The notes below the pieces were generated by a model. The model had not been told where the DNA came from. It was given only the letters and a program-made list of their open reading frames with translations, and searched no databases. Made by a program: the position numbers and the translations under genes. From NCBI RefSeq assembly GCF_020850895.1, contig NZ_JADZDS010000043.1, positions 1 to 57,827 on the forward strand: DNA of 57,827 nucleotides, in the 5' to 3' direction. Source of the stretch: Thermomonas sp. GTDB lineage: Bacteria; Pseudomonadota; Gammaproteobacteria; Xanthomonadales; Xanthomonadaceae. Of the stretch, positions 12,719 to 19,355 are shown piece by piece. Within the stretch, counting starts at the first letter, position 1. The number at the start of each line of letters is the position of its first letter.

Positions 12719-13828
12719 CTATCGTTTGGGGTCGGGCATCGCGCTGGCGGCTGGAATCCTCGGCGTGATCTCGCCGACATCCCCGCACTGGGCGCGGTGG
12801 CGCAGTGCCTGATCCATCAGCACCAAGGCCAGCATCGCCTCGCAAATCGGGGTGGCGCGGATGCCGACGCAGGGGTCGTGGCGGCCGGTGGTGACGATCT
12901 CGACCGCGTTGCCGTCCACGTCCAGCCCGGCCACTGGCAGGCGCAGGCTGGAGGTGGGCTTGAACGCCACCGACACACTGATCTGCTGGCCGCTGGAGAT
13001 GCCGCCGAGGATGCCGCCGGCATGGTTGGACAGGAAGCCCATCGTGGTCATCACGTCCCGGTGTTCGCTGCCTGTTTGCGCCACGGCGGCAAACCCGTCG
13101 CCGATCTCCACGCCCTTGACCGCGTTGATCGACATCATCGCCGCCGCCAGTTCTGCATCGAGCTTGCCGTAGATCGGCTCGCCCCAGCCCGGCGGCACGC
13201 CATCGGCCACCACCGTCACCCGCGCGCCGACCGAATCGCCGGATTTGCGCAGCGCGTCCATATAGGTTTCGAGCTCCGGCACCTGCGCGGAATCCGGCCA
13301 GAAGAACGGGTTGGACTCGATCGCATTGGCATCAAACCCGGTCGGCACGATCTGGCCGATCTGCGATAGCCAGCCGCGCACCGTCACGCCACGCGGCGCC
13401 AGCCATTTCTTGGCAATCACCGCCGCCGCCACCCGCATCGTGGTCTCGCGTGCGCTGCTGCGGCCGCCACCGCGCGGGTCGCGGATGCCGTACTTCTGCC
13501 AATAGGTGTAGTCGGCGTGACCGGGCCGGAATTGGTCAGCGATCTTCGCGTAATCGCGGCTGCGGGCATCGGTATTGCGGATCAGCAGCGCGATCGGGGT
13601 GCCGGTGGTGATGCCCTCGTACACGCCGGACAGGATTTCGACCGCGTCGGCCTCATGCCGCGCCGAGGTGTGGCGGCTCTTGCCGGTGGCACGCCGCGCC
13701 AGGTCATGGACGAAATCTTCCGGCGCAATGGCGATCCCCGGCGGGCAGCCGTCCAGCACACAGCCGATCGCCGGCCCGTGCGATTCGCCGAAGGTGGTGA
13801 CGCGCAGCAGCTGGCCGAAGGTATTCAC
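12719..13828 (-). CDS. aroC: Chorismate synthase
   Basis: AroC makes chorismate from 5-enolpyruvylshikimate-3-phosphate using reduced FMN, the last shikimate-pathway step. The 369-residue protein begins [18 protein letters not shown]. It carries the family signatures [14 protein letters not shown], the [32 protein letters not shown] region, and near the C-terminus [15 protein letters not shown] with the conserved Arg-His-Asp. Length and start are typical. The next gene upstream runs divergently; the expected glutamine methyltransferase gene (prmB) of related genomes is not next to it. Confidence 0.97.
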
Positions 13829-14033
13829 GTTCAGGGGGAGGCGTCACGGGTCGCCGGCACGCCGGATGGCGCACTGCAGCATCAATCTGCGACTGTACAG
13901 CAAGCCGGCGCCCCGCGGCGGACTTGCCGCTGTCTGGCGACATGGCTGAATGGCATGAGCGGCCCAGCGTCCAGGGCAGCCCCAGCGCCCCGGCCACGCC
14001 TGTCCCACGTCAAAGCACGCCCCGGCGCGACCG

Positions 14034-14039
14034 TATAAA
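14034..14039 (+). promoter_or_regulatory. -10 box candidate for the five-gene operon
   Basis: TATAAA (followed by AT) stands out in GC-rich DNA 26 bases before the ATG of the first gene at 14066. The -35 region at 17 bp is weak. It would give a leader of roughly 20 bases containing the AGGA ribosome-binding site. No operator-like palindrome is seen in the 237-bp divergent gap to aroC. Confidence 0.5.
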
Positions 14040-14065
14040 ATGGGCGGCCTTGATCAGGATTCGTC

Positions 14066-15313
14066 ATGTCTGCGATCCAGCTCAGCTACAGCACCTTCGG
14101 TTTGACCAACCTCGACTTCCTCGACGCGATCGATGCGGTGGATCGCGCCGGTTACGCCGGGATCGAAATCTCGTTCCATCGCGACCAGTTCAACCCGTTC
14201 GACATCGACGACGCCTATCTCGATGTCGTGAAGCAACGGCTGGACGCACGCCGGGTCCAGGCCTGCTGCGTGGCCACCGCTTCGCACTTCTTCGACCCGC
14301 ACCGCCCCCACGAGCCGTCGCTGATGGCGCTGGAGAAGGCCGCGCGGATGCGCCGGATCGACCTCGTCAAGCGCGGCATCCACGTCGCCCGCAAGCTGGG
14401 CGTGAACCTGGTCACCTTCGGCAGCGGCTTCATCCGCGACGACCACGTCGCGCATCCGGAGGTGGACCCGACCGCGCTGCTGGTGGATTCCATTCGCGAA
14501 TGCCTGCGCGAAATCCGCGATGACGAGGACATCACCCTGCTGATCGAGCCGGAGCCCGGCATGTACATCGAGACCATGGCGCAGGGCCTCGATCTGCTGG
14601 AAAAAGTCGGCTCGGAGAAGTTCAAGCTGCATATCGACATCTGCCACGCCTATTGTTCGGAAACCGACTACATCGGTGCGCTGCGTGCCGCCGCGCCGCA
14701 GGCGCGCTACCTGCACATCTCCGACGCCCGCAAAGGCTACAACCTGAAGATCGTCCACGACCACGACGCGCTTGCTCCCGATTTGAATTTCGCCAGCACG
14801 CTGGTGCATTTCCCGGACACGGCCGATTTCCTGTTGCTGGATCGCACGCATCCGATCCATTTCCCGCTCGAAGCCCCGTCGGTGGCCCGCAAGGCCCGGA
14901 TCGACGCCCTGCTGCAACGCGCTGGCGTCAGCGCCGACCTGCAGGTCGTGCCCTATTCCAGCCTGTATGCCGGCGCCTCGCCGCTGGATGACGAGCTGTT
15001 CACCTACCTGATCTCGATGCCCGGCCTGAGCTACGACGTGCTGGAGCGCGCCCGTCCGGTGCTCGGCCACCTGCGCGGCGTGAAAGGCCCGGTCCTGATC
15101 GACAGGATGGTGGCCAATACCCTCACCGGCATCGTGCATTTCCACGAGATCCCGGGCGAAGGCACGCTGGATCTGGCCGGCAGCTTCCGGGCGCTGGAGG
15201 CCGGCGGTTTCCAAGGCTACGGCTCGGTCGAGCTGTACCACCACGTCGAAGGCTGGCAGAAAGCGCTGGACGACAGCTACCGCCATCTCGCGGCGATCAA
15301 TGGTGGGCGCTGA
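14066..15313 (+). CDS. Xylose-isomerase-like TIM-barrel sugar isomerase/epimerase protein
   Basis: This 415-residue protein looks like the sugar-phosphate isomerase/epimerase (AP-endonuclease family 2) barrel. The start LSYSTFGLTNLDFLDAID is strand 1, followed by GYAGIEISF, GVNLVTFGSG, the metal-site glutamate in LLIEPEPGM, HIDICHAY, and LHISDAR. Near the C-terminus HFHEIPGEGTLDL and GYGSVELY are the last metal-binding strands. Between LHISDAR and the final HEIPGEG lie about 110 residues that look like an insertion, making it longer than the usual 260-300 aa. An AGGA precedes ATG. It heads an operon with luxS-like, cyclase, ubiG-like and ubiA-like genes; its substrate is unknown, but a sugar or cyclitol phosphate fits. 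Confidence 0.8.
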   Translation: MSAIQLSYSTFGLTNLDFLDAIDAVDRAGYAGIEISFHRDQFNPFDIDDAYLDVVKQRLDARRVQACCVATASHFFDPHRPHEPSLMALEKAARMRRIDLVKRGIHVARKLGVNLVTFGSGFIRDDHVAHPEVDPTALLVDSIRECLREIRDDEDITLLIEPEPGMYIETMAQGLDLLEKVGSEKFKLHIDICHAYCSETDYIGALRAAAPQARYLHISDARKGYNLKIVHDHDALAPDLNFASTLVHFPDTADFLLLDRTHPIHFPLEAPSVARKARIDALLQRAGVSADLQVVPYSSLYAGASPLDDELFTYLISMPGLSYDVLERARPVLGHLRGVKGPVLIDRMVANTLTGIVHFHEIPGEGTLDLAGSFRALEAGGFQGYGSVELYHHVEGWQKALDDSYRHLAAINGGR

Positions 15314-15322
15314 GGGCGAACC

Positions 15323-15805
15323 ATGATCGACGTTGCCTCCCTCGGCTGGCCAGAAGGGCTGGTCGGTGAACTCGACCACCGCCGGTTCAAGGCGCCCAGC
15401 GTCAAGCTGCGCTCGGCGCGGCTGGGCGAGCACGGGGACGCGCTCTACTGCGTCGACCTGCGCATTCGCCTGCCGAATGCCGATGCCTTCCTCACCTCGA
15501 CCGAGCTGCATTCGGTCGAACATTTCCTGCTCGAAGGCTTCCAGCGCCTGCTGCCCGAGCACTTCGTCTCGGTCGGCCTGATGGGTTGCCAGACCGGCTT
15601 CTACCTCGGCTTCGTCAACGAGGGCCGCAGCGAAGTGCTGTGCGCCTGCCTCGCGCGCATTCTCGAGGAGATGCAGGCGGCCACGGCCGTGCCCTACGCC
15701 AACATCGAACAATGCGGCCACTGGCGCAATCACAGCCTTGCCGATGCGCAGCGGGTGGCGCGGGAAATCCTCGCCCGCCGCGCACACTGGCTGGACGCCG
15801 CATGA
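15323..15805 (+). CDS. luxS: LuxS-family protein (S-ribosylhomocysteine lyase-like)
   Basis: The 160-residue protein aligns by motif along all of LuxS. It has the metal pair H63-x-x-E66-H67 (HSVEH), the catalytic cysteine C89 in MGCQTGFY, and the third metal ligand C131 in EQCGHWRNHSL. LuxS is an Fe/Zn enzyme that splits S-ribosylhomocysteine into homocysteine and DPD, the AI-2 precursor, by moving a carbonyl along a pentose. All key residues are kept, but the rest is divergent (it opens MIDVASLGWP rather than a typical LuxS start). It lies 9 bp after the isomerase gene and its stop overlaps the cyclase start (ATGA). In this setting it may act on another sugar thioether or ketose; the alternative is a real AI-2/methyl-cycle enzyme. 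Confidence 0.85.
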   Translation: MIDVASLGWPEGLVGELDHRRFKAPSVKLRSARLGEHGDALYCVDLRIRLPNADAFLTSTELHSVEHFLLEGFQRLLPEHFVSVGLMGCQTGFYLGFVNEGRSEVLCACLARILEEMQAATAVPYANIEQCGHWRNHSLADAQRVAREILARRAHWLDAA

Positions 15806-16953
15806 TTACCCGCGCCGACCGCTGGCAGGTGCGCACCCAGCGCCCGATCGCCTATGACGTGATCAAGGCGGCGGGCCTGTTCGATGCCGACAATCGCCGC
15901 CTGCTCGACTACGGTCGCAGCGACGGCGGTCGCCGCTTCGTGGTGGTCGATGCCAATGTGGACCGCCTGCATGGCAAGGCGATCCGCGACTGGTTCGCGC
16001 ACCACGGCATCGAAGCGCGTGTCGTGGTGTTCCCGGGCGGCGAAGAACACAAAACGATCGACCTCTACCAGGACATCCTGCGCGAGCTCGACGGCTTCCC
16101 GATCCACCGCCGCGACGAGCCCATCATCGCCATCGGCGGCGGCGTGCTGACCGACGTGGTCGCCTTCGTCGCCGCCACCTACCGCCGCGGCATCCCGCAC
16201 ATCAAGGTGCCCACCACACTGATGGGCTACATCGACGCGGCGCTCGGGATCAAGGCCGGGATCAACTTCAACGGCAACAAGAACCGCCTGGGCAGCTTCG
16301 AGCCGCCCGCTGCGGTCCTGCTCGACAAGCACTTCCTGCGCACGCTCCCCGCCCGCCACCTGCGCAACGGCGTGTGCGAGATCGTCAAGCTGGCGGTGGT
16401 CTGCGACGCAGACCTGTTCACCCGGCTCGAACGTGACGGCGCGCGCTGCATCGAAACCGCGTTCCTGGATACCGCCGGCGACGCCATCCTCGACGCCGCG
16501 ATCCAGGGCATGCTCACCGAACTGGAACCGAACCTGCACGAGGACCAGCTGGCGCGCAAGGTCGACTTCGGCCACAGCTTCAGCTACGGGCTGGAGACGC
16601 GTCACGAGCAGCACCTGCTGCACGGCGAGGCGGTGCTGCTCGACGTGCTGGTCTCGACCGAACTCGCGCTGAGCCGCGGCCTGCTGGGGCAACGCCAGGC
16701 TGAGCGCGTGTTCGGGCTGGTCGCAAGCCTGGGCATCGACCTCGACCCCGGCGTCCTCGATGCCGAGGTGATGTGGCGCTCCCTGCTCGACCGCATCGAG
16801 CACCGCAATGGCTTGCAGCGCGTGCCGGTGCCCAACGGCATCGGCAGTTGCACCTTCCTCAACGATATCGCCCGCCACGAGCTCGAAGCCACGGTGCCGG
16901 CCCTGCACACCCGCCTCCAGGTCAACCATGAATCAAGCTGCGAACGTCGATAG
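15802..16953 (+). CDS. Sedoheptulose-7-phosphate-cyclase-like / 3-dehydroquinate-synthase superfamily protein
   Basis: This 383-residue protein is a sugar-phosphate cyclase. It shows FPGGEEHKT (77-85), the NAD loop IGGGVLTDVV (111-120), the substrate lysine in DAALGIKAGIN (K151), and zinc ligands E193 (CEIVK), H258 (DFGHSF) and H274 (LLHGEAV). The segment GINFNGNKNRLGSFEPP and the RNGVCEIVKLAVV helix resemble the C7-cyclitol branch (2-epi-5-epi-valiolone synthase, EboD) more than AroB, as remembered. It would cyclise a heptulose phosphate such as sedoheptulose-7-phosphate. Start ATG 15802 overlaps the LuxS-like stop; its end overlaps the methyltransferase start by 26 bp. The exact product needs biochemistry; aroB cannot be excluded from sequence alone. 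Confidence 0.82.
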   Translation: MITRADRWQVRTQRPIAYDVIKAAGLFDADNRRLLDYGRSDGGRRFVVVDANVDRLHGKAIRDWFAHHGIEARVVVFPGGEEHKTIDLYQDILRELDGFPIHRRDEPIIAIGGGVLTDVVAFVAATYRRGIPHIKVPTTLMGYIDAALGIKAGINFNGNKNRLGSFEPPAAVLLDKHFLRTLPARHLRNGVCEIVKLAVVCDADLFTRLERDGARCIETAFLDTAGDAILDAAIQGMLTELEPNLHEDQLARKVDFGHSFSYGLETRHEQHLLHGEAVLLDVLVSTELALSRGLLGQRQAERVFGLVASLGIDLDPGVLDAEVMWRSLLDRIEHRNGLQRVPVPNGIGSCTFLNDIARHELEATVPALHTRLQVNHESSCERR

Positions 16954-17641
16954 TTCCGAAGTCAGCAAGTTCGACCGCGTCGCCCAACTCTGGTGGGACC
17001 CCACCGGCAAGATGGGCATGCTGCACGTCATCAACCCGCTGCGCAGCCAGTTCACCTTCGATCATGTGGAGAACATCCAAGGCGCGAAGGCGGTCGACGT
17101 CGGCTGCGGCGGCGGCATCCTGACCGAAACCCTGGCCAAGGCCGGCGCGCAGGTGATCGGCATCGACCAATCCGAGATGAGCCTCGCGGTGGCCCGCCAG
17201 CACGCCGAGAAAAGCGGCTTGTCGATCGACTACCGGCTGCAGCGGGTCGAGGAGCTGGTCGAACTGGAAGCCGGCACGTTTGACGTCGTCACTTGCCTGG
17301 AAATGCTTGAACACGTGCCCGATCCGGCCGCGATCATCGACGCCTGCGCGCGCCTGCTCAAGCCCGGCGGCCACGTGATCTTCTCGACAATCAATCGCAG
17401 CTTCAAGGCCTGGCTGTTCGCCATCGTTGGCGGCGAATACGTGATGCGGATCCTGCCGAAAGGCACCCACCAGTACGAAAAACTGATTCGCCCCAGCGAA
17501 CTGCGGCAATGGGCGCAGGCCGCCGGCCTCACCCACCTGCGCAGCGCCAGCTTGATGTTCAATCCGCTGAACAAGCGCTTCAAGGTGGCCGAAGGCAAGG
17601 AAGACGTGAACTACATGATGAGCTACGTCAAGCAGGCCTGA
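16928..17641 (+). CDS. ubiG: UbiG-family SAM-dependent O-methyltransferase
   Basis: The 237-residue protein matches UbiG over its full length. It has KFDRVAQLWWDP near the start, INPLR, the SAM-binding VDVGCGGGILTETLA, VTCLEMLEHVPDP, and the IFSTINRS segment. The UbiG membrane-binding region SFKAWLFAIVGGEYV followed by KGTHQY is also present, ending in DVNYMM. UbiG performs both O-methylations of ubiquinone. Here the gene is locked between a cyclase and a UbiA-like prenyltransferase, with a 26-bp overlap upstream and 5 bp downstream. It may be the cell's ubiquinone enzyme moved here or a paralogue for another lipid-linked catechol or cyclitol. Sequence alone does not decide. Confidence 0.85.
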   Translation: MNQAANVDSSEVSKFDRVAQLWWDPTGKMGMLHVINPLRSQFTFDHVENIQGAKAVDVGCGGGILTETLAKAGAQVIGIDQSEMSLAVARQHAEKSGLSIDYRLQRVEELVELEAGTFDVVTCLEMLEHVPDPAAIIDACARLLKPGGHVIFSTINRSFKAWLFAIVGGEYVMRILPKGTHQYEKLIRPSELRQWAQAAGLTHLRSASLMFNPLNKRFKVAEGKEDVNYMMSYVKQA

Positions 17642-17646
17642 GCCGG

Positions 17647-18549
17647 ATGCGCAGCTTCCTCGCCCTGTCGCGCTCCACCCACGGCGTGCTCGATATCGCC
17701 ATGCCGGGCTTCGCCGCGCTGTTGTGGCTTGGCCACTTCCCGCGCTGGCCGGTGCTGCTGGTGGCGCTGCTGACCGCGCTGGCCGGCTACACCGCGCTGT
17801 ACGCGCTGAACGACATCATCGGGGTCAAGGTCGACCGCGAGAAATTCGCCGGTGCCGGCCCCAACGCCGGTTATTCGGTGGAAGCCTCCGACCTGCGCTA
17901 CCCCATCGCCCAGGGCAAGCTCAGCCTCGGCAAGGGGATCGCCTGGTTCTCGGCCTGGTTTGTGATCGCCCTGATCGGCGCGTACTGGCTCAACCCGCTG
18001 CTGGTCTGGGTGGTGCTGGCCGCGCCGATCCTGGAAACCGTCTACTGCCTGCTGTTCAAGGTCAGCTGGTGGCGGGTGCTGGTCAGCGGCGTGGTGAAAT
18101 CGCTGGGCCCGGTGGCGGCAGTGCTGGCGGTGGTGCCACGCCCGGACCCGGCCCTGTTGGGGCTGATGGTGGCCTGGCTGATGGCTTGGGAAATCGGCGG
18201 CCAGAACGTGCCCGCCGACTGGAACGATGTCGAGGAAGACCGCCGCGTCGGTGCGCGCACGATCCCGCTGGTGTTCGGTGAGAAGGTGGCCGGCCGGGTG
18301 GTGGTGGTCGCCCTGCTGGCCACGCTGGCGCTGGGCTGGCTCCTGCCGCGGATGGCTGCGCCCGAACTCGGGCTGGGACTGCGCTTCCAGCTCGGGATGC
18401 TGGCGATCGGCGTGGTCCTGCTGCTGATCCCCGGCGTGCAACTGCTGCGTTCCCATGAAGGCCGCCGCGCCGCGAAATTGTTCGACCGTGCCAGCCTGTA
18501 TCCGCTTGCGTTGCTGGCCTTGATCACGGCATGGATCCTGCTGGGTTAG
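17647..18549 (+). CDS. UbiA-family membrane prenyltransferase (EboC-like)
   Basis: The 300-residue protein has about eight hydrophobic helices and the UbiA fold signs. The second Asp-rich motif is intact (DWNDVEED: D191, D194, D198, followed by RRVGARTIPLVFG). The first motif reads NDIIGVKVD (N55, D56, D63), lacking the middle Asp of the canonical NDxxDxxxD. UbiA enzymes move a polyprenyl group from a diphosphate onto an acceptor at the inner membrane. The company of a cyclitol-type cyclase recalls EboC of the cyanobacterial/Pseudomonas ebo operons, where a UbiA-like protein serves metabolite traffic. Start ATG 17647 lies 5 bp after the methyltransferase stop. The altered first motif leaves catalysis uncertain. 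Confidence 0.82.
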   Translation: MRSFLALSRSTHGVLDIAMPGFAALLWLGHFPRWPVLLVALLTALAGYTALYALNDIIGVKVDREKFAGAGPNAGYSVEASDLRYPIAQGKLSLGKGIAWFSAWFVIALIGAYWLNPLLVWVVLAAPILETVYCLLFKVSWWRVLVSGVVKSLGPVAAVLAVVPRPDPALLGLMVAWLMAWEIGGQNVPADWNDVEEDRRVGARTIPLVFGEKVAGRVVVVALLATLALGWLLPRMAAPELGLGLRFQLGMLAIGVVLLLIPGVQLLRSHEGRRAAKLFDRASLYPLALLALITAWILLG

Positions 18550-18593
18550 AAGCGCGCCGCGCTGTCGCGCCATCGCGAGCGCGGCCTTTCCGT

Positions 18594-18599
18594 TAGAAT
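18594..18599 (+). promoter_or_regulatory. -10 box candidate for pyrH
   Basis: TAGAAT lies 33 bases before the pyrH ATG in the short gap after the UbiA-like gene. A clear -35 is absent. If used, pyrH is transcribed separately from the five-gene operon upstream. Confidence 0.4.
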
Positions 18600-18632
18600 T
18601 CGCGCGCCTTCCTTTCGTCCGTCCGGTGCCCC

Positions 18633-19355
18633 ATGTCCGAACTCGCCTATCGCCGCGTGCTGTTGAAACTCTCCGGCGAGGCGTTGATGGGGGACGAGGA
18701 TTACGGCATCGATCCCAAGGTGCTGGGCCGACTGGCGCGCGAGGTCATCGAGGCCCGTGACGCAGGCGCCGAGATCGCGCTGGTGATCGGTGGCGGCAAC
18801 ATCTTCCGCGGCGCCGGGCTGGCCGCCGGCGGCATGGATCGTGTCACCGGCGACCAGATGGGCATGCTGGCCACGGTGATCAATGCGCTGGCGATGCAGG
18901 ATGCACTGGAGAAGGCCGGCGCCAAGTGCCGGGTGATGAGCGCGCTCAAGATCAACGACGTCTGCGAGGATTACATCCGCCGCCGCGCCATTCGGCATCT
19001 GGAAAAGGGCCGCATCACGATCTTCGCCGCTGGCACCGGCAACCCGTTCTTCACCACCGACTCCGGCGCGGCGCTGCGCGCGATCGAGATTGGCGCCGAC
19101 CTGCTGCTCAAGGCCACCAAGGTCGACGGGGTCTATGACAAGGACCCGGAAAAACACGCGGACGCGGTCAAACTCGATAACCTGAGCTACGACGATGTGA
19201 TCCGCCACGACCTGCGGGTGATGGACACCGCCGCCTTCGCGCTCTGCCGTGACGCCAAGCTGCCCCTGCGGATCTTCGACATGGCCCAGCCCGGCGTGCT
19301 GTTGCGCATCCTGCGCGGTGAACACATCGGCACTCTGGTGGGTGGCCCGGGCTGA
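18633..19355 (+). CDS. pyrH: Uridylate kinase (UMP kinase)
   Basis: PyrH phosphorylates UMP to UDP in pyrimidine nucleotide synthesis; it is a hexameric amino-acid-kinase-fold enzyme. The 240-residue protein starts [20 protein letters not shown], with the LKLSGEAL phosphate loop. It has the [10 protein letters not shown] motif, [10 protein letters not shown] near the C-terminal third, and DTAAFALC for ATP binding. Length is normal. In related genomes rpsB and tsf usually precede it; here the five-gene operon is immediately upstream instead, so local gene order has been broken. Confidence 0.97.

Follow-up and report, generated by a model that had tools for sequence, protein, structure and literature searches.

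We analyzed a stretch of 57,827 nucleotides from a Thermomonas genome (the window: contig NZ_JADZDS010000043.1, assembly GCF_020850895.1; 2.5 Mb in 146 contigs, 95% complete), in which five plus-strand genes at positions 14066 to 18549 encode, in this order, a TIM-barrel protein, a LuxS-fold protein, a sugar-phosphate cyclase, a UbiG-type O-methyltransferase, and a UbiA-superfamily prenyltransferase. According to our analysis, this operon is probably a second route, complete in itself and independent of oxygen, to a prenylated benzoquinone of the ubiquinone type, most likely ubiquinone itself, and would start from sedoheptulose 7-phosphate instead of 4-hydroxybenzoate. That the five genes form a conserved, O2-independent route to such a quinone is strongly suggested by gene loss. 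With somewhat less assurance, we favor a fuller version, in which the whole ring and its methyl group would derive from sedoheptulose 7-phosphate by cyclization and two dehydrations, without O2 or a precursor from chorismate or tyrosine, and in which the pathway would have spread horizontally among Proteobacteria, including several denitrifiers, and Chloroflexota, wholly displacing the classical one in some lineages. The open reading frames, their Pfam and NCBIfam families, and their spacings of +9, −4, −26, and +5 base pairs (bp) agree with a first-pass annotation made from the letters of the window alone.

Spread of the operon and canonical ubiquinone genes

A scan of a one-genome-per-species collection with an alignment of the TIM-barrel protein alone recovered 31 related loci, a lower bound since the scan used two short peptides. 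All five genes are present in the same order and on the same strand in 29 of them, and the other two (L044 and L067) end inside the operon at contig ends. The arrangement is beyond chance, and the single conserved operon supposed by the first-pass annotation is indeed found in many genomes. Its hosts are Thermomonas (the nearest named operon relative of the window is a Thermomonas assembly), Dokdonella, Luteimonas, Rhodanobacter, Lysobacter, strain HdN1, Candidimonas, Alcaligenaceae, Burkholderiaceae, and Chloroflexota (Anaerolineae), i.e., two phyla spanning Gammaproteobacteria, Betaproteobacteria, and Chloroflexota. The order holds even where identity to the window drops to its minimum (51 to 64%, according to the gene), and a 4-bp overlap between the LuxS-like and cyclase genes is present in 27 of the 31 loci, with start codons chosen by script. 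Among the window genome and 59 relatives, the LuxS-like protein occurs in 7 of 60 genomes, the window's own among them; all 7 belong to the 25 same-genus genomes, and none to the 35 others. A plasmid search with the UbiA-like protein gave no match. Dropped from the protein alignments were the truncated UbiG of L044 and cyclase of L067 and the broken prenyltransferase frame of L070, where the match (L070:9706-10601) is interrupted between approximately residues 120 and 133 through sequencing error or decay.

Gene 4 (positions 16928 to 17641; 237 amino acids) matches Pfam methyltransferases and scores over the curated NCBIfam cut-off for UbiG (263.8 versus 102.95 bits), being the sole protein in the window genome to pass it. 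A survey of 21 genomes showed the operon UbiG to be the only UbiG in five same-genus ones, the window genome included, with two UbiG proteins in two operon genomes and one in each of the 14 family genomes without a detected LuxS-like protein. The 23 operon genomes reached via the loci contain one UbiG in 12 cases (7 Proteobacteria and 5 Chloroflexota) and two in 11.

The canonical pathway was then inspected in 28 genomes, comprising 8 proteobacterial genomes with the operon UbiG only (the window genome and seven others, here called operon-only) and 20 comparison genomes, namely, 11 operon genomes with two UbiG proteins and 9 same-genus genomes without the operon; six Chloroflexota and L044, L048, L056, L058, L064, L067, and L070 were set aside from these tests. 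Five operon-only genomes are 95 to 99% complete, and G065, G066, and HdN1 carry no completeness value, the HdN1 record being titled complete genome. Canonical UbiA was over its cut-off in 20 of the 28 genomes, i.e., in every comparison genome and in none of the 8 operon-only genomes. Two or three UbiH/I/F hydroxylases are encoded in each of the 20 comparison genomes, and the 8 operon-only genomes yielded none at E values up to 1e-30. UbiE passed its cut-off in 21 genomes, the 20 for comparison and HdN1, and in none of the other 7 operon-only genomes. The gene content, families, order, and spread of the operon and the absence of canonical genes from the operon-only genomes are read directly from the sequences, and the operon stands in, as a correlation, where canonical ubi genes are missing. 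Since aerobic and anaerobic ubiquinone synthesis in Escherichia coli both require UbiA, UbiE, and UbiG (PMC6747719), the O2-independent factors UbiTUV alone could not rescue their absence.

Six of the eight operon-only genomes (five Thermomonas-type and G065) keep a UbiA-like remnant of 113 to 180 bits (cut-off, 275) that lacks the NDxxDxxxD motif, the best match in G066 is by eye a heme O synthase-like protein, and in HdN1 there is none. Three UbiA-superfamily matches occur in the window genome, one of them heme O synthase (by eye), another the degenerate UbiA with 153 bits, and the third gene 5. The homologue devoid of the Asp motif is maintained as an open frame (G000:C41:39479-40285, or L155, and L148 to L151 in the five Thermomonas-type genomes; L152 in the Dokdonella-named one) and is perhaps retained in a noncatalytic role. 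As a pathway marker, UbiD failed: 13 of the 20 comparison genomes keep canonical UbiA, UbiG, UbiE, and hydroxylases yet have no match to the UbiD model TIGR00148.

Enzyme families and proposed chemistry

Gene 3 (15802 to 16953; 383 amino acids), which overlaps gene 2 by 4 bp, is, as judged from its sequence, a sedoheptulose-7-phosphate-cyclase-type protein (Pfam DHQ_synthase, 122.8 bits). Its score on the NCBIfam AroB model lies below the cut-off (211.5 versus 305), and a profile of seven operon cyclases matched the EEVS ValA (4p53) with 373 bits and 5tpr with 301, the best AroB reaching 166. When 44 proteins were placed in a tree, the 31 operon cyclases (those of 30 loci and of the window) came together as a single clade with 100/100 support, inside the sedoheptulose-7-phosphate cyclase group, from which three EboD, two AroB, and one uncharacterized Streptomyces protein are separated at 97/97; given the long branches, no finer placement is claimed. 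Both bits and tree thus place gene 3 closer to EEVS and DDGS than to AroB, as the first-pass annotation had expected of a C7-cyclitol-type cyclase. An AroB identity, considered as a candidate, was rejected on the score, on the tree, where the protein does not group with AroB, and on the presence of a true AroB elsewhere in the genome (367 bits). At 14 sites that distinguish five EEVS-type references from two DDGS references, gene 3 has the EEVS residue, but its F166 and Y262 agree with neither kind; of the five EEVS-type references, ValA alone is a characterized enzyme and the rest are so annotated.

Gene 2 (15323 to 15805; 160 amino acids; Pfam LuxS, 94.9 bits) matches ten NCBIfam LuxS models, all below cut-off, and its predicted structure (pLDDT 94.9) matches solved LuxS structures. 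The positions of the metal ligands (H63, H67, and C131) and the catalytic E66 and C89, with the roles described for LuxS (PMC8233902), are conserved in 32 of 32 operon proteins. In the same 32 proteins, the canonical LuxS residues F, T, R, D, and S (positions 7, 20, 28, 83, and 85 of the window's protein) are altered, where invariance was defined from four true LuxS references and the altered set includes the Asp six residues before the catalytic Cys; this check used all 32 sequences, while one alignment of the LuxS-like proteins holds 27 of the 32 rows (without L044, L046, L051, L055, and L063). Some of the altered residues contact the substrate in LuxS. An MTA/SAH nucleosidase, the enzyme that supplies S-ribosylhomocysteine, was over cut-off in none of 16 operon genomes (with weak matches in 10) versus 7 of 14 controls, the best operon-genome match being that of G080, where one of two pieces scores 63 bits against a cut-off of 73.8, and therefore the usual LuxS substrate is not expected. 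On this ground and that of the altered residues, a true LuxS role is unlikely. Because the catalytic positions are kept while invariant residues are altered and no nucleosidase passes the cut-off, gene 2 probably performs LuxS-like chemistry on a different substrate.

Gene 1 (14066 to 15313; 415 amino acids) encodes an AP_endonuc_2 TIM barrel (Pfam, 120.5 bits) of the isomerase/dehydratase-like kind. Residues E161, D191, H217, and E389 are invariant in 32 of 32 proteins and are taken to be a putative metal site, and its AlphaFold model (pLDDT 84.4) has a fold like those of ketose 3-epimerases, IolI, the 3-dehydroshikimate dehydratase 3dx5, and the 2-hydroxy-3-keto-glucal hydratase 8ro4. Enzymes resembling it isomerize, dehydrate, or hydrate keto-polyols, and one of them makes an aromatic ring.

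In a tree of 23 of the 32 operon UbiG proteins and 11 canonical sequences, the two kinds form separate clades (100/100). Gene 5 (17647 to 18549; 300 amino acids; Pfam UbiA, 93.8 bits) belongs to a set in which the motifs NDxxGxxxDxxK and ADWNDxxxD are retained in 29 of 29 aligned proteins.

From these families we infer all of the reactions and what the product is, likely ubiquinone itself. The cyclase would form the C7 cyclitol ketone 2-epi-5-epi-valiolone (C7H12O6), whereupon the TIM barrel and the LuxS-like enzyme would shift the carbonyl and remove two waters, at C5 and at the CH2OH branch, to give 2,3,4,5-tetrahydroxytoluene (C7H8O4). The UbiA-like enzyme would prenylate the free C6, and the UbiG-like enzyme would add both O-methyl groups to yield ubiquinol, so that no hydroxylase, decarboxylase, C-methyltransferase, or O2 would be needed. 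The formulas balance: sedoheptulose 7-phosphate minus phosphate is C7H12O6, minus two waters C7H8O4, and plus two methyls C9H12O4, i.e., ubiquinol-0. 2-epi-5-epi-Valiolone has oxygen on C1 to C4, its carbon branch on C5, and a CH2 at C6, and the ubiquinone ring has oxygen on C1 to C4, methyl on C5, and prenyl on C6; removal of the C5 and branch hydroxyls would lead from one to the other without redox change. LuxS chemistry is a precedent for the conversion of CH2-X into CH3 beside a carbonyl, and UbiG makes both O-methyl groups of the classical route.

Regulation, counterevidence, and alternatives

The regions upstream of the operon were searched for FNR-type boxes, defined as TTGATNNNNATCAA with at least 9 of 10 positions matching within 300 bp (strict consensus), chance levels being obtained by first-order Markov resampling. 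Such boxes occur ahead of the operon in 7 of the 11 genomes with retained canonical genes (0.05 expected), in 0 of 8 operon-only genomes, in 0 of 6 Chloroflexota, and in 2 of 7 not classed; when all loci were divided into 1367 tiles of 300 bp, 20 tiles contained one. A relaxed consensus with Y and R gives 10 of 11, 1 of 8, 0 of 6, and 5 of 7, with 49 of 1367 tiles; it was picked after the sites had been inspected, so that the strict version is the one to be weighed. This pattern fits an anaerobic pathway that would complement the aerobic one and whose switch would be lost once it is the sole pathway. The O2-independent ubiquinone genes of E. coli are under Fnr (PMC10470549). Upstream of the operon in the window lies a weak CRP/FNR-like match, CTGTCCCACGTCAA (14000 to 14013, plus strand), with 8 of 10 positions of the relaxed consensus TTGAYNNNNRTCAA; it was not counted as a site and is perhaps a relic.

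Several observations weigh against our proposal. By their names, the eight operon-only genomes represent about three lineages (Thermomonas-type, a Dokdonella/Lysobacterales pair, and HdN1), so the canonical-gene losses are a small number of independent events, not eight, and they could stem from the adoption of an unrelated quinone or from quinone uptake. HdN1, a facultative denitrifier (PMC3413370), lacks canonical UbiA but has a prenyltransferase (L107) over the PRK05951 cut-off (402 versus 239 bits), which we read as MenA-like and suggestive of menaquinone synthesis. This enzyme would explain why HdN1 kept UbiE/MenG, and its main quinone may be menaquinone; under the relaxed consensus, moreover, an FNR-like site lies at −293 in this strain. 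In the Chloroflexota, where gene tests comprised UbiG and UbiA-superfamily searches plus family models for two genomes, both of these two have MenA, and neither the strict nor the relaxed consensus found an FNR-type site upstream of the six operons. UbiD, matched in only 7 of the 28 genomes, is uninformative. Finally, residues F166 and Y262 of the cyclase match none of the five EEVS-type or two DDGS references, the first Asp motif of gene 5 has G where D is usual, and the order of the dehydrations and their assignment to the two enzymes are guesses.

These same cyclase residues leave room for another product: by the same route, the operon may make a different ubiquinone-like respiratory quinone that replaces ubiquinone, for instance one that retains the hydroxymethyl group or has fewer oxygens. 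We regard this as unlikely. The missing UbiE, hydroxylases, and canonical UbiA would fit any such quinone, and a recent survey allows that further quinones may yet be discovered (PMC13386864). Against it speak the UbiG-type methylation, the cyclitol skeleton, which fits the ubiquinone ring exactly, and the consideration that respiratory enzymes adapted to ubiquinone would be common to close relatives using the canonical pathway.

The first-pass annotation had instead taken the operon for a possible ebo variant attaching a methylated ring to, or moving it with, a polyprenyl lipid. Its ring-prenylating and methylating enzymes were correctly recognized, but a respiratory quinone of the ubiquinone type is the better explanation of the product, because canonical ubiquinone genes are missing from the genomes that rely on the operon. 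A pathway of the ebo kind, whose prenylated and methylated cyclitol would be exported or transported and have no part in respiration, would involve the same overall enzyme types (a sedoheptulose-7-phosphate-type cyclase, a TIM barrel, and a UbiA-type protein), and the TIM barrel does faintly resemble EboE over a short stretch (BLAST E value 8e-4; hhalign E value 9.5e-5, probability 59%). Using EboD, EboE, and EboC references from annotated ebo clusters of Mycetohabitans and Ketogulonicigenium, we found no orthologues of the three in the operon, and the ebo variant was rejected: EboD falls outside the cyclase group, gene 5 is no more similar to EboC than chance would give (BLAST E value 2.4; hhalign probability 0.5%), and the NCBIfam EboC model gave no match to gene 5 at E values up to 0.001. 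EboA, EboB, and EboF were not recognized among 18 flanking genes scanned, no systematic search having been made, and the joint absence of canonical UbiA, UbiG, UbiH/I/F, and UbiE would be left unexplained, all of which makes this alternative very improbable.

Equally hard to credit is that the UbiG and UbiA copies alone serve ubiquinone and displaced the canonical ones, the other three genes being unrelated and the hydroxylases and UbiE replaced by unrelated enzymes elsewhere: the UbiG score and its status as only UbiG in eight proteobacterial genomes agree with it, but the set of five is intact in 29 of 31 loci, several unseen replacements would be required in about three lineages, and the operon UbiA scores 35 bits on the canonical UbiA model (cut-off, 275).

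As for the surroundings of the operon in the window, the TATAAA box noted in the first-pass annotation is present as a possible −10 element (14034 to 14039, plus strand) and recurs just upstream of the operon in L043 to L047 and L049, but a sigma-70 pattern scan of 13830 to 18660 returned no site. A terminator-like stem-loop follows at 18564 to 18585 (plus strand), the number of such structures in the region being at chance level. Outside the operon are the divergent aroC, encoding chorismate synthase (12719 to 13828, minus strand), and, downstream, pyrH, encoding UMP kinase (18633 to 19355, plus strand), followed by frr, uppS, and cdsA. The 18 flanking genes scanned are varied, with no shared partner among them. 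A UbiB-like kinase immediately upstream (L059:5237-6916; 462 bits, cut-off 487.55) was not found in the other 30 loci; two Rhodanobacter loci (L055 and L062) have cytochrome c domain proteins upstream, and in L055 the operon is followed by a gene for a flavohemoprotein-like reductase that scores below cut-off. In Alcaligenaceae bacterium CGII-47, a gene for a chlorite-dismutase-family protein lies just upstream (L071:6064-6732).

Relation to known pathways

The gene set itself is already contained in one published table. In a 2022 work on nitrite reductases of Chloroflexi, the nirS neighborhood of SURF MAG 42 lists a xylose isomerase-like protein, LuxS, EEVS, UbiG, and UbiA in the same order (Table A1 of PMC8756737). 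There, the five genes are given as neighbors only, with no function proposed in the relevant passages, and a word-start search for "quinone" in the text gave 0 occurrences. No proposal of a sugar-derived ubiquinone pathway was found in the titles and abstract openings of the open-licence papers retrieved by our literature searches.

The ebo/EDB cluster shares with the operon the cyclase superfamily, the UbiA superfamily, and a TIM barrel. Unlike the operon, two such clusters lack both LuxS and UbiG in their annotated stretches, and neither word occurs in the text of the two ebo papers searched, in line with the first-pass view that these two members are foreign to ebo. With EEVS (ValA) and C7-cyclitol pathways, the operon has in common the cyclase family and the prenylation of a cyclitol-derived ring, for which BE-40644 offers a precedent, an EEVS and a UbiA-superfamily farnesyltransferase prenylating a compound derived from 2-epi-5-epi-valiolone (PMC5133447). 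It differs from them in its LuxS-like, TIM-barrel, and UbiG partners, in a cyclase clade of its own (100/100), and in its wide conservation together with the absence of respiratory-quinone genes.

In the work considered here, ubiquinone synthesis starts from 4-hydroxybenzoate with or without O2, and the O2-free version alters only the hydroxylases and accessory factors. The canonical pathway (UbiC/A/D/X/I/G/H/E/F) has UbiA-superfamily prenylation and UbiG-family O-methylation in common with the operon, which would involve no 4-hydroxybenzoate, decarboxylation, hydroxylases, or C-methylation, its ring being proposed to come from a sugar phosphate. The UbiTUV pathway is O2 independent, as proposed for the operon, and its Fnr control (PMC10470549) parallels the FNR-type boxes described above; unlike the operon, it replaces the hydroxylases only and still needs UbiA, UbiE, and UbiG.

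The proposal is directly testable with the five genes in E. coli. If true, it would explain respiration without canonical UbiA, UbiE, UbiG, and hydroxylases in some bacteria, correct genome-based quinone predictions, predict a ubiquinone-like quinone in Chloroflexota, and assign LuxS-fold enzymes a function beyond the methyl cycle. The sugar-derived route would then stand to ubiquinone as the futalosine pathway did to menaquinone.

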